Shown: positions 60,121 through 64,000 of the stretch, piece by piece
How positions within the stretch are numbered: position 1 is the stretch's first letter
Layout: every line of letters begins with the position of its first letter
Source: Halobaculum roseum
Lineage (GTDB): Archaea > Halobacteriota > Halobacteria > Halobacteriales > Haloferacaceae
Direction: 5' to 3'
Length of the DNA stretch: 64,000 bases
NCBI RefSeq assembly: GCF_019880245.1
Contig: NZ_CP082288.1
Span: forward strand, 1 to 64,000
Position numbers and translations under genes: made by a program
The notes under the pieces: generated by a model
What the model was told of the DNA's origin: nothing
What the model saw: the letters and a program-made list of their open reading frames with translations, nothing else
The model's database searches: none

Positions 60121-60157
60121 TGTTTTATACGTGTGCCCGTGTGTGGCTGGTAGTACA
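60121..60157 (+). promoter_or_regulatory. TATA element of the tubulin-like GTPase operon
   Basis: TGTTTTATAC at 60121-60130 lies about 28 bases before the ATG at 60157. The spacing suits a leaderless or nearly leaderless transcript for the operon. Confidence 0.65.
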
Positions 60158-62073
60158 TGTCTAGAACCGCGCACGGGCAAACGGTCGCGTGGGGGGCGGC
60201 AGGGATCCCCCTCGTGATCGCGCTCGTGCAGACGTTGTTGGCGCTGTTCGGCTACACGTCGAACTCGGCGGGGCTCACGCCCATCGCGGATCCGGTGTTG
60301 TCGATCCCCGTGCTGTTCGAAGCGGCGGTGGTGTTCAAGGACAGTTCGGCTGTCGTGATGGGGCTGTTCCTGCTCATCGCGCTGGCGTGGGCGGCCCAGG
60401 GCGGCGCGATGTTGCTCGTCGAGCACCGCGAGGCCGCCTACGGGGCGGCCACGCTCTCGTCGGTGCTGTTCTTCGCGCTGTTCTTCGGCGTGTACGCGCC
60501 GCTGACCTCGGCCGACGTCCCGCTCGTCCAGTTCGCCGCGTTCTACGCCGTTCCCGTATGTGCGGCCGCCCTCCAGTTGTTCGCGGTCGCGACGTACCCG
60601 TGGAACGAGGTGGTGCTCGAGGAGACCGGGGACGACCTCGGGCGTCTGGAGGCCGATCTAGCGAACAAGCGGTCGGCGTTCGACACCGCCTTCGACGCCC
60701 GCTTCGAGGGACTCGAGACGCTCTCGAACGTTGCCCCCGGCGGTGTTCGCGATGTCCGCGAGGGAGCCGAGGAGTTCCGTACACGTCTGGACGGGATCGA
60801 CGACGACATCGCCGAGGTACGAACGATGTCCGACGGCGAGGCCGCGCAGGCGGCCCGCGCCGGCGTCGAATCCGAGATCGACGGCCTCGATCCCGAGGCC
60901 CGGATCGAGGAGCTCACAGACCGGCTCCGTCAGGCGCTCGCCAGCGGGATCCGAACCGAGTACGGGGAGTTCGTCGTCCGCTCCGAGTACGGCGAACGCT
61001 ACCGAACGGTCAACCTCCCCACCAAACACCGTGAGGTGTCGATCCCGGGCGGCGCGGACGCGGTCCACCTCGATCACGTCGACGAGGAACTGGAGTCGCT
61101 GACGCGGTCGGCCGACTCGTTCGGCGCCGTCGCCGCGGCCGTCGAGGCGGTCGACGAACACCGTCAGCGCGTCCGCGCGCACGTTAGCGAGCGCGAGGCG
61201 CCCGTCGTCGAGGCGATCTCGACCGCGGAGTCCCGGCTCGATACGCTGGACGACCAGATCGAGGCGGTGGACGTTCCCTTCCGCGATCGGATCGACGAGG
61301 TGTTGGTCGCCGGACGCGACCCGGACCTCGCCGGCGCACGCGACGTGCAGTCGGATCTCGACCGCGCGCGCGAAGCGTTGCACGATTGCCAGTTCGACGA
61401 CGCGCTCTCGGTCGCCGAGGACGCCGCCGAGCGGGCGGCGATGCTCGTGACGACGGCGGAACTGTTGTCGACGCTGGAGGCGACGATCGACGCCCGTCAT
61501 GCCACCGTGTCGATCCCGACGGAGACCCCCGACGAATACATCGAGGCGATCGTTCCCGCCATCCGGGCCGGCTACGACGGCGTCGACGCGACCCTCGACG
61601 CCGGCGGCGGCCGGATCACGTTCACCTACGACGGCGTCGCGGACGGGACGGTTCCGGCCACCGATGTGGCGGCCGCGGGCGACACCTCCTCGGACGACGC
61701 CGGCGACCCGGCCGGTACATCGAACCAGCCCGATGCGGTCGAGACGGGATCGGGCCGGGAGTCGGTTCGCGTCGCGCCGCCGGAGGAGGTCGTCGACGGC
61801 GTGTTGTACGCGTTCCGCGAGTTCGAGCGCGTCGCCGAGGGCGACGACCGGATCGTCCAGTTCCGGCTGGAGGATCTCCCCGACTCGGTCGCGACCCGGG
61901 ACGTGCTCGTCAACGTCGAGCGGTTCGCCGGTCGACAGTCCGACCTGTTCGAGGCCGTCGACCTCCAGAGCCCCGAGCCGCCGGGGTTCATCGAGTTCAC
62001 CCCGGCCGAGGGCGAGTCGATCGAGCGATCCATGTCGGCGGCGCACCGGCGCTTCCGCGAAAAGTACACGTAA
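60157..62073 (+). CDS. Membrane coiled-coil protein encoded with the tubulin-like GTPase
   Basis: A 638-residue protein. Residues 1-155 hold four hydrophobic helices (AAGIPLVIALVQTLLALFGY; GLFLLIALAWAAQGGAMLLV; ATLSSVLFFALFFGVYAPL; FYAVPVCAAALQLFAVATY). Residues about 160-440 are long charged helices, probably coiled coil. From about 500 there is an acidic linker and a final soluble domain (VVDGVLYAFREFERVAEGDD). It is the first gene of the operon, 22 bases before the GTPase. A membrane anchor that recruits or is shaped by the GTPase is the natural reading. Confidence 0.8.
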   Translation: MSRTAHGQTVAWGAAGIPLVIALVQTLLALFGYTSNSAGLTPIADPVLSIPVLFEAAVVFKDSSAVVMGLFLLIALAWAAQGGAMLLVEHREAAYGAATLSSVLFFALFFGVYAPLTSADVPLVQFAAFYAVPVCAAALQLFAVATYPWNEVVLEETGDDLGRLEADLANKRSAFDTAFDARFEGLETLSNVAPGGVRDVREGAEEFRTRLDGIDDDIAEVRTMSDGEAAQAARAGVESEIDGLDPEARIEELTDRLRQALASGIRTEYGEFVVRSEYGERYRTVNLPTKHREVSIPGGADAVHLDHVDEELESLTRSADSFGAVAAAVEAVDEHRQRVRAHVSEREAPVVEAISTAESRLDTLDDQIEAVDVPFRDRIDEVLVAGRDPDLAGARDVQSDLDRAREALHDCQFDDALSVAEDAAERAAMLVTTAELLSTLEATIDARHATVSIPTETPDEYIEAIVPAIRAGYDGVDATLDAGGGRITFTYDGVADGTVPATDVAAAGDTSSDDAGDPAGTSNQPDAVETGSGRESVRVAPPEEVVDGVLYAFREFERVAEGDDRIVQFRLEDLPDSVATRDVLVNVERFAGRQSDLFEAVDLQSPEPPGFIEFTPAEGESIERSMSAAHRRFREKYT

Positions 62074-62095
62074 CCGCATCCATAGAGACTACAAA

Positions 62096-63733
62096 ATGAC
62101 CGAATCCTGCGAGATCTGTTTTACCGCACCGGCGGACTGGGAGGAGGATAGCATCGAGGAACACGTTCTGAACGCCCACGGCGACGCGCAGCCGTCGGTG
62201 CGAGCCATCTACGGCGACCGGTTCGCTCACCTGTTCGAGGAGGGTACGGGCGAGGACGGCGACGGAGCCGGCGGAGCGGACGCCCCCGACGCCCCCGCCG
62301 GCGGCGACGCCCCGACGGATCTGGGCGGCGCCGAGGACCTGGGGCCGGTGTCGATGGACGACGACGGCGAGATGTACGGCCGCAAGTGGTTCCTCATCGG
62401 GATCGGCGGCGCCGGCAACAACATCGTCGACGCCGTGTTGATGCGTCGCGACACCCTCGCGCGCAACCACGAGGACCGCGCCCGCATCTGGCAGGGCGGG
62501 CTCGCGGGCTACGGCCTGCTCAACACCAACATCGCGGAGTTGGAGCAGACCTACTACACGAAGGAGCTGAAGGAGTACTCCCGCAACGACCTGCTGTCGA
62601 ACTCGATCATCGGGTTCGGCAAGCACGGCTACAGCGGGATGGGGTACCGCTGGAGCAACGGCGCGAAGGTGGCGGCGGCCGACTTCGCCGACGGGAGCAA
62701 TCCCTTCCGCGACCGCTGGGACATGACGAGCCAGGACATCCGCGACGCGCAGGCGGTGATGCTCGTCCACAGCGTCACGAAGGGGACCGGCTGCGGGGCG
62801 ACGCCGGTCATCGCCGAGAAGCTCCGCGAGGAGGTCCAGGAGTCGGGACTCGTAATCGACCAGGCGATCCTCAGCTCCGTCGTCATCCCCTCGGAGGGCG
62901 GCCAGCAGTCGGCCGTCGGCGGCCGCGCGAAGACGAACGGCGTGATCGGCCTGTCGCGAATCTCGCGGTCGGCCGACGCGATCATCCCGTTCAACAACGA
63001 CCACCTGCGCCGTGCGAGCACCGACATCGAGCCGCGTATCGAGGGGATCGACCAGTACAACCCGCCGGAGTTCGCGGACCTCAACAAGCCGCTGGTGGCG
63101 TTCCTGGAGGCGTTCACGATGTCGTCGACGCCGCAACTCACCGACCGCGACGCGACGATGAGCATCCGCGGGAGCGTCTTCGACGTGGCCGACAGCTTCC
63201 GGCTGGTCGAGGACAAGTATCCGCACGACATGGCGCCCGAGGAGCGCCCGGCGGTCGTGCTCGCGCCGGCGCTGGGCCGGCTTCGATCGGACGACATCTC
63301 GCGGTCGAGCCTCGAACTGCTCGCGCGCAACACGCTGTTGCAGAACCGGCTCGCCGACTTCGACCCCTCGACGGCGTGGGGCGGCAACTTCATGATCTAC
63401 GGGCCGGAGGAGCAGATGTCGGACGTCTCCGAGTTCGTAACCGACGGGACGCTCCAGGAGATCCTCAACGGCGACGAGTTCCTCGACGCCGGCTCGCGTT
63501 CTGGCGTCGAGACCGTCGACGTGCAGCTGAACCAGCTCGTCATCCCGTACCTCGACGACGTGTTCATGTGGGGGACTCTGTGGAACCCACGGATGCCGTC
63601 GCTGGAGTCGATGTACGAGCACGCCAAGCGCCTGAAGGACGAGGGCCAGAGCGTGCAGGCGGAGGACATCCGCGACGTGTGGAACGAGGTGCAGCCGTTA
63701 TTCGACTGCCTCGGCCGGTCCAACATGCTGTGA
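62096..63733 (+). CDS. Divergent tubulin/FtsZ-superfamily GTPase with N-terminal zinc-finger-like motif
   Basis: A 545-residue protein. CEICFTAPADW with EEHVLNAH gives C-x2-C-x14-H-x4-H at residues 5-28. An acidic linker follows, then the GTPase domain: FLIGIGGAGNNIVDAVLM at 99-116, LLNTNIAELEQ at 141-151 (cf. NTD in FtsZ), the T4-type loop VTKGTGCGATPVIAEKL at 227-243, and YNPPEFADLNKP at 321-332 in the T7 position. It is neither FtsZ1 nor FtsZ2 nor CetZ. I think it belongs to the FtsZ-like families described from genome comparison and linked to membrane remodelling. Confidence 0.87.
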   Translation: MTESCEICFTAPADWEEDSIEEHVLNAHGDAQPSVRAIYGDRFAHLFEEGTGEDGDGAGGADAPDAPAGGDAPTDLGGAEDLGPVSMDDDGEMYGRKWFLIGIGGAGNNIVDAVLMRRDTLARNHEDRARIWQGGLAGYGLLNTNIAELEQTYYTKELKEYSRNDLLSNSIIGFGKHGYSGMGYRWSNGAKVAAADFADGSNPFRDRWDMTSQDIRDAQAVMLVHSVTKGTGCGATPVIAEKLREEVQESGLVIDQAILSSVVIPSEGGQQSAVGGRAKTNGVIGLSRISRSADAIIPFNNDHLRRASTDIEPRIEGIDQYNPPEFADLNKPLVAFLEAFTMSSTPQLTDRDATMSIRGSVFDVADSFRLVEDKYPHDMAPEERPAVVLAPALGRLRSDDISRSSLELLARNTLLQNRLADFDPSTAWGGNFMIYGPEEQMSDVSEFVTDGTLQEILNGDEFLDAGSRSGVETVDVQLNQLVIPYLDDVFMWGTLWNPRMPSLESMYEHAKRLKDEGQSVQAEDIRDVWNEVQPLFDCLGRSNML

Positions 63734-63736
63734 CCC

Positions 63737-64000
63737 ATGTCGGGACCACCAATCGCGGCCGTGTTCATGGGCCTGTTCGGCGGCTCGGAGGAACCCGACA
63801 TCGAGGCGATCGCGGATCGCCTCGGCTCGCGGCCGACCGAGGGCGACGTAAAGCGGACGCTCGGCGAACTCGAGGAGTCGCTTGACCGGCTCGCTGCGGC
63901 CGCCGACATCGCCGGCCCCGACGGCCGCGTCGAGAACGACGCTCCGCCCGCCGACAAGGCGCGCGAACTCGCGACGCTGGTCGAGCGTGGACGCCTCAGC
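63737..64000 (+). CDS. Helical protein, third gene of the GTPase operon (cut by window end)
   Basis: ATG 63737 follows the GTPase stop by three bases. The visible 88 codons read IAAVFMGLFGGSEEPDIEAI, then RLGSRPTEGDVKRTLGEL and further charged helices, with no stop before the edge. An N-terminal hydrophobic patch is followed by a soluble helical region that may be coiled coil. No family is recognisable from this part. Confidence 0.75.
   Translation, partial: MSGPPIAAVFMGLFGGSEEPDIEAIADRLGSRPTEGDVKRTLGELEESLDRLAAAADIAGPDGRVENDAPPADKARELATLVERGRLS

Follow-up and report, generated by a model that had tools for sequence, protein, structure and literature searches.

The window analysed here, the first 64,000 nucleotides of contig NZ_CP082288.1 of the haloarchaeon Halobaculum roseum (RefSeq assembly GCF_019880245.1), ends within an island of about 16 genes, which encodes three tubulin-like GTPases, termed Z1, Z2 and Z3, together with membrane, surface and AAA proteins. 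Eleven genes on the same strand, designated g1 to g11, are followed by a convergent set on the minus strand. An initial annotation of the window had described a three-gene operon with a single tubulin-like GTPase; the supposed operon turned out to be the first module of this larger array, and two further GTPases, Z2 and Z3, begin at contig positions 65351 and 69924, respectively. The first module (module A, g1-Z1-g3) comprises the following features.

60123..60129, plus strand: TATA-box-like TTTTATA, about 28 bp upstream of the g1 ATG, a candidate archaeal promoter judging by its sequence
60157..62073, plus strand: g1, 638 aa, ATG start, four-transmembrane (TM) coiled-coil membrane protein
62096..63733, plus strand: Z1, 545 aa, ATG start, zinc finger, linker and GTPase of the tubulin/FtsZ superfamily
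62108..62179, plus strand: zinc finger of Z1, C5-x2-C8-x14-H23-x4-H28, CCHH in 23 of 26 aligned sequences
62393..63013, plus strand: PF00091 GTPase domain of Z1, residues 100-306, 51.7 bits against a cut-off of 33
62768..62803, plus strand: T4 loop of Z1, HSVTKGTGCGAT, replacing GGGTG[ST]G; HSVTKGTGCG in 24 of 26
63176..63199, plus strand: T7 synergy loop of Z1, VFDVADSF, with D363 and D366 invariant
63737..64000, plus strand, cut at the window end (contig 63737-65269): g3, 510 aa, helical protein

Profile matches and conservation in at least 23 other genomes show that g1, Z1 and g3 are neither chance open reading frames (ORFs) nor artefacts of a high G+C content. The initial annotation was right about the genes and their coordinates, and likewise about the four helices of the coiled-coil protein g1 and the zinc-finger ligands and altered tubulin signature of Z1. 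The three genes also recur as neighbours, which a neighbourhood survey found in the same order in 24 other genomes.

Three families of tubulin-like GTPases

A PF00091 search of the whole genome yielded eight matches, three of which cluster on the contig of the window (C3) at 62393, 65363 and 69957. These correspond to Z1, Z2 and Z3 (545, 387 and 399 aa), which all pass the cut-off of 33 bits with 51.7, 53.5 and 38.4 bits, respectively. On the contrary, none of them reaches the 295 bits required by the FtsZ equivalog model TIGR00065 (34.4, 44.1 and 23.9 bits), and PF13809, the FtsZl1/Tubulin_2 family with a cut-off of 27 bits, is matched at 14.6 bits by Z1, at 22.9 bits by Z2 and not at all by Z3. 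Canonical FtsZ and CetZ are present alongside Z1-Z3 in the same genome.

In profile searches against the PDB, each of the families is about equidistant from FtsZ, CetZ, TubZ and tubulins, with CetZ as the top match of Z2 and Z3. The AlphaFold 2 (AF2) model of Z1 adopts a tubulin fold (pLDDT 75, pTM 0.71), and its top Foldseek match is CetZ2 (4b45, E 5e-15, TM-score 0.70 on the target); E-values against CetZ, FtsZ and tubulin are around 1e-14. In a tree computed by a quick method with SH-aLRT support only and without eukaryotic, Asgard, TubZ or bacterial sequences, Z1, Z2 and Z3 each constitute one clade on a stem of 1.7-1.8 substitutions per site outside FtsZ and CetZ; the set of CetZ and CetZ-like rows (97%) leaves Z1-Z3 out, and the three families fall on one side of a branch only once long branches are removed (support 75). 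Thus, none of the three families belongs to FtsZ1/FtsZ2 or CetZ and each is a clade of its own, in line with the earlier view of Z1 as a divergent GTPase.

T1, the T6 Asn and the T7 DxxD are retained across all three families, the latter invariantly (D363/D366 in Z1, D240/D243 in Z2, D228/D231 in Z3). The core of T4 is canonical in Z2 (GGGTGCG) and Z3 (GGGTGNG), while Z1 features TKGTGCG in 24 of 26 sequences. Since T1, T6 and T7 are kept, and in keeping with established knowledge of the superfamily, Z1, Z2 and Z3 likely bind GTP and assemble. The notion that Z1 is catalytically dead by virtue of its altered T4 is unsupported, as both the AF2 model and the alignment place the T7 DxxD at the invariant D363/D366. 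Moreover, the zinc finger does not appear to be confined to some members of the Z1 family, whose identity between genera amounts to 43-66%: the three exceptions among 26 sequences look like artefacts of start choice or alignment, and for two of them (genomes G014 and G162) the N-terminal matches were found separately.

Genome G048 encodes another, degenerate Z3-like protein (119 bits) in an unrelated neighbourhood (C8; L107:9242-10438).

Partners in module A and the remainder of the island

The protein encoded by g1 starts with four hydrophobic segments (about residues 9-35, 62-89, 93-121 and 121-147), followed by a long coiled-coil or helical cytoplasmic part and a small alpha/beta part at the C-terminus. 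Its AF2 model attains a pLDDT of 83; searches returned neither a Pfam family nor a PDB fold match at E<=0.001. The gene is kept 5' of Z1 in at least 25 other genomes. In g3, the body is poorly conserved and the N-terminus varies, such that relatives carry zinc ribbons, a bPH domain plus TM segment, or TM segments, while the C-terminal region is nearly invariant (HNHSIP...YSVMLRRLRG). Judging by this pattern, g3 likely represents an adaptor whose C-terminal tail would serve as docking site.

Downstream of module A, the same-strand array continues with module B (Z2 to g11) and meets the convergent set.

Contig 65351-66514, plus strand: Z2, 387 aa
Contig 66511-66798, plus strand: g5, 95 aa, two TM segments
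Contig 66800-67843, plus strand: g6, signal peptide and C-terminal TM segments
Contig 67840-69924, plus strand: g7, N-terminal two TM segments and coiled coil
Contig 69924-71123, plus strand: Z3, 399 aa
Contig 71129-74002, plus strand: g9, signal peptide, predicted extracellular part, TM segment 449-475, cytoplasmic part with immunoglobulin-like (Ig-like) match
Contig 74005-75006, plus strand: g10, membrane or surface protein judging by its signal-peptide and TM pattern
Contig 75003-77738, plus strand: g11, signal peptide and C-terminal TM segment
Contig 77977-80991, minus strand: beta-propeller/Ig-like gene, 1004 aa, the propeller name being that of RefSeq for the H. salinarum ortholog
Contig 80994-82733, minus strand: CDC48-like AAA gene, by profile search
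Contig 83372-84406, minus strand: 344-aa gene of the convergent set
Contig 84431-85576, minus strand: 381-aa gene of the convergent set

The junctions from g1 through g11 measure 22, 3, 81, -4, 1, -4, -1, 5, 2 and -4 bp, the first two separating g1 from Z1 and Z1 from g3; these distances suggest two transcription units, g1-Z1-g3 and Z2 to g11. The C-termini of g10 and g11 are related (hhalign 80%), and a small domain is common to g7 and g9 (hhalign 85%). The AAA protein carries a single AAA domain (PF00004, 107.9 bits) and a weak CDC48_2 N-domain match, with CDC48/VCP as top PDB matches (E 5e-46). A separate 331-aa gene after g11 was discarded as a locus-boundary artefact, as it is really the 3' part of the single 1004-aa beta-propeller gene. 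In Halobacterium salinarum R1, plasmid PHS2 has an extra hypothetical gene of 226 aa (OE_RS12010; L127:26695-27375) between the AAA and 344-aa genes, where the Halobaculum locus has a gap of similar size (C3 82734-83371).

Conservation and co-occurrence

The order and strand of g1-Z1-g3-Z2-g6-g7-Z3-g9-g10-g11 are kept in 24 other genomes of several families (tblastn), often with junctions of -4 to +5 bp, and in most loci examined the convergent set lies past g11. Among 292 genomes of Halobacteria, strong Z1 matches occur in 26, i.e. in about 1 of 11, and the genomes with AAA matches are precisely these 26; Z3 is found in them and in two more (G042 and G048). The naive hypergeometric probability of the co-occurrence of Z1 and AAA, which ignores relatedness, is about 1e-37. 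In four genomes (G017, G061, G098 and G249) the AAA gene is distant or on another contig yet present, so the association of Z1 with AAA goes beyond linkage alone. Within the genus of the window the whole set is present in four of eight sampled genomes, indicating that gain or loss as a unit has occurred; named Halobaculum records contain proteins 89-98% identical to those encoded here.

Partial loci separate the modules. G042 and G048 carry Z2 to g11 and the propeller gene without the Z1 module, the AAA gene and the 381-aa gene, while G081 and G031 harbor a divergent g1-Z1-g3 module alone. Outside Halobacteria but within the same phylum, g7-Z3-g9 was found in G529, as the only one of 51 genomes of its family. 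Complete sets also reside on megaplasmids, as in H. magnesiiphilum, H. halobium, Natrinema and H. salinarum R1, where PHS2 carries the genes from OE_RS12075 to OE_RS12000, among them g1 (OE_RS12075), Z1 (OE_RS12070), Z2 (OE_RS12060), Z3 (OE_RS12040) and the AAA gene (OE_RS12015); in many other genomes the contig that bears the copy is as large as a chromosome (2.9-4.5 Mb; G037, G038, G085, G124 and G161). A two-pattern search of IMG/VR returned no virus-borne copies.

The solitary modules have conspicuous neighbours of their own. In G081, a 1144-aa FtsZl1/Tubulin_2 gene (L057:3896-7330; PF13809, 44.5 bits) lies beside g1-Z1-g3 and might connect the two systems. In G031 (L058), the module has a kinase-containing gene and genes of the vWA/MoxR type nearby: upstream of g1, a kinase-Ig-like fusion (L058:17033-19666) comprises PF00069 (59 bits) and CarboxypepD_reg and matches the g9 profile. 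A 456-aa protein encoded near the same Z1 module (L058:6154-7524) features GLGGGG and GGSGNG motifs; it may be a further, very divergent tubulin-like protein, but the profile support for this candidate is too weak.

Relation to known systems

FtsZl1 (Tubulin_2, PF13809), a coiled-coil GTPase of about 1050 aa, belongs to a vWA-linked system described by Makarova and Koonin 2010 (PMC2875224), the nearest precedent in concept, which resembles the island in combining an FtsZ-superfamily GTPase with membrane proteins in a multi-gene locus and in its predicted role in membrane remodelling. However, Z1-Z3 lack the ~1050-aa architecture and stay below the PF13809 cut-off, there are three GTPases instead of one, and in their block a CDC48-like AAA protein is present whereas no vWA/OmpA protein was recognised. 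A further related group is Halo.Tub (Santana-Molina et al. 2023, PMC9871819), which according to the main text of that study occurs in several quasi-tandem copies with coiled-coil neighbours and is of unclear origin. The study covered 5 kb on either side and, as far as its main text goes, handled Halo.Tub as one group, with no mention there of three families, a 16-gene unit, the zinc finger or co-occurrence with AAA. Judged on this main text, Halo.Tub is probably a partial earlier sighting of the Z1-Z3 locus. In addition, CetZ surveys named 'non-canonical' archaeal members without analysing them (PMC9856176). Beyond the Halo.Tub remark, a search of open-licence papers found the island described nowhere, and it has apparently never been studied.

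With CetZ (H. volcanii CetZ1/CetZ2), Z1-Z3 share membership of the archaeal tubulin superfamily, CetZ being top match for both the Z1 fold and the Z2 and Z3 profiles, but they fall outside its clade, have other neighbours, and Z1 bears an extra zinc finger. Similarly, the GTPase fold and T7 DxxD are common to FtsZ1/FtsZ2, from which Z1-Z3 differ by their 24-44 of 295 bits, separate clades and non-universal occurrence. The AAA protein is akin to CDC48/VCP by both PF00004 and PDB scores; unlike it, it is single-domain and encoded by a dedicated gene that occurs only alongside the complete Z1-Z2-Z3 system.

To our knowledge, only a handful of tubulin systems from prokaryotes are understood, and almost all of these employ one or two subunits. 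Here, three deeply separate tubulin-like families are kept across haloarchaeal families with a fixed complement of partners (membrane, surface and AAA proteins), which would constitute a multi-tubulin machine of a kind rarely found in nature other than in eukaryotes and Asgard archaea. Annotation has hidden this system, since RefSeq gives Z1 and Z2 on PHS2 the name 'cell division protein FtsZ' and leaves Z3 as a 'hypothetical protein'. Its function is directly testable, because the tractable H. salinarum R1 carries the complete set.

A putative membrane-tethered remodelling machine

Gene content, order, intact nucleotide and T7 motifs and co-occurrence are direct observations on the sequences, and they suggest, at a rough probability of 0.45, a membrane-tethered multi-tubulin remodelling machine that would be coupled to surface proteins and itself remodelled by the CDC48-like ATPase. 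As to polymerisation and hetero-assembly, we infer that Z1, Z2 and Z3 would bind GTP and assemble at the inner membrane face into filaments, most likely either mixed or parallel. Regarding topology, module A would tether Z1 through g1 as four-TM coiled-coil receptor and g3 as adaptor, with the zinc finger perhaps as an additional tether, while the two-TM and single-TM proteins of module B (Z2-g5-g6-g7-Z3-g9-g10-g11) would join Z2 and Z3 to large Ig-like and helical domains that are predicted to lie outside the cell. The presumed substrate of the AAA protein is the Z1-containing polymer, which it would take apart or recycle; such turnover would account for the absence of AAA wherever Z1 is absent. 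As biological purpose, membrane and cell surface would be locally remodelled or organised, the process served presumably being remodelling of the membrane or envelope, or else contact between cells. Since the partners are membrane and secreted proteins, we favour an envelope role over tethering of DNA or RNA.

Several points weigh against this proposal. A specific process is indicated by none of the genes of the island, the modelled receptor role of g1 is backed by no fold match, and the altered T4 loop implies that nucleotide handling may differ in Z1. Moreover, the co-occurrence probability takes no account of phylogeny, and the distribution, being patchy, is no less compatible with an accessory function than with a structural one. 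Somewhat unlikely is a reading that goes further, namely a new kind of prokaryotic cytoskeleton in which an obligate three-tubulin membrane hetero-assembly would be mechanically coupled to surface proteins and dismantled by a dedicated CDC48-like unfoldase; by analogy only, it would be a tubulin-based counterpart to microtubule arrays that an AAA enzyme disassembles.

The envelope partners could also form an apparatus for cell-cell contact, adhesion or mating, in which g9, g10 and g11 would recognise cells or surfaces and be clustered or positioned by a tubulin-like scaffold. The large parts predicted to lie outside the cell, with their Ig-like matches, whole-unit gain or loss inside one genus (4 of 8 genomes) and carriage on megaplasmids speak for this unlikely alternative, but the block showed no pilin, secretion ATPase or DNA-transfer gene, and no known adhesin family scored above the Pfam cut-off there except the CarboxypepD_reg domain. 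The tubulin fold of the Z1 model with its CetZ match, and the coexistence of canonical FtsZ and CetZ, would suit specialised paralogs forming an extra shape or division cytoskeleton, which is nonetheless quite unlikely in view of the deep separate clades of Z1-Z3, their occurrence in only ~10% of genomes and partners that differ from those of FtsZ and CetZ.

Very unlikely is a role in defence or competition, whereby GTPase filaments, AAA and surface proteins would answer viruses or rival cells. The patchy, unit-wise distribution speaks for it, as does the resemblance of the AAA protein to the IetA/TRIP13 models of PADLOC; however, matches of this kind are general in the superfamily, the CDC48 score is far higher, no other tested component of the island matched PADLOC, and no effector domain was found in the block, so that a known anti-phage defence system was rejected. 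Plasmid or chromosome segregation of the TubZ type, in which the Z1 zinc finger or an adaptor would join Z filaments to DNA, is hardly probable at all: the copies on the four megaplasmids and the zinc finger itself would accord with it, but many copies sit on chromosome-size contigs, the partners are secreted and membrane proteins, and no TubR-like gene was recognised in the block, centromere-like repeats not having been searched for.

Further divergent members of the superfamily occur apart from the island. On contig C1 of the same genome (G000 C1:955281-955691; L005; ORF L011:6438-8147, minus strand), a further divergent protein with PF00091 (61.5 bits) stands isolated; it starts with MQIGIVGVGGGGTALADALL, has lost the T4 pattern (GGGTAAG) and takes a long branch near CetZ. 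In G013, two CetZ-like genes are arranged in tandem (L062:7824-10523), one of them long-branched with the T4 sequence GGGTGCG.

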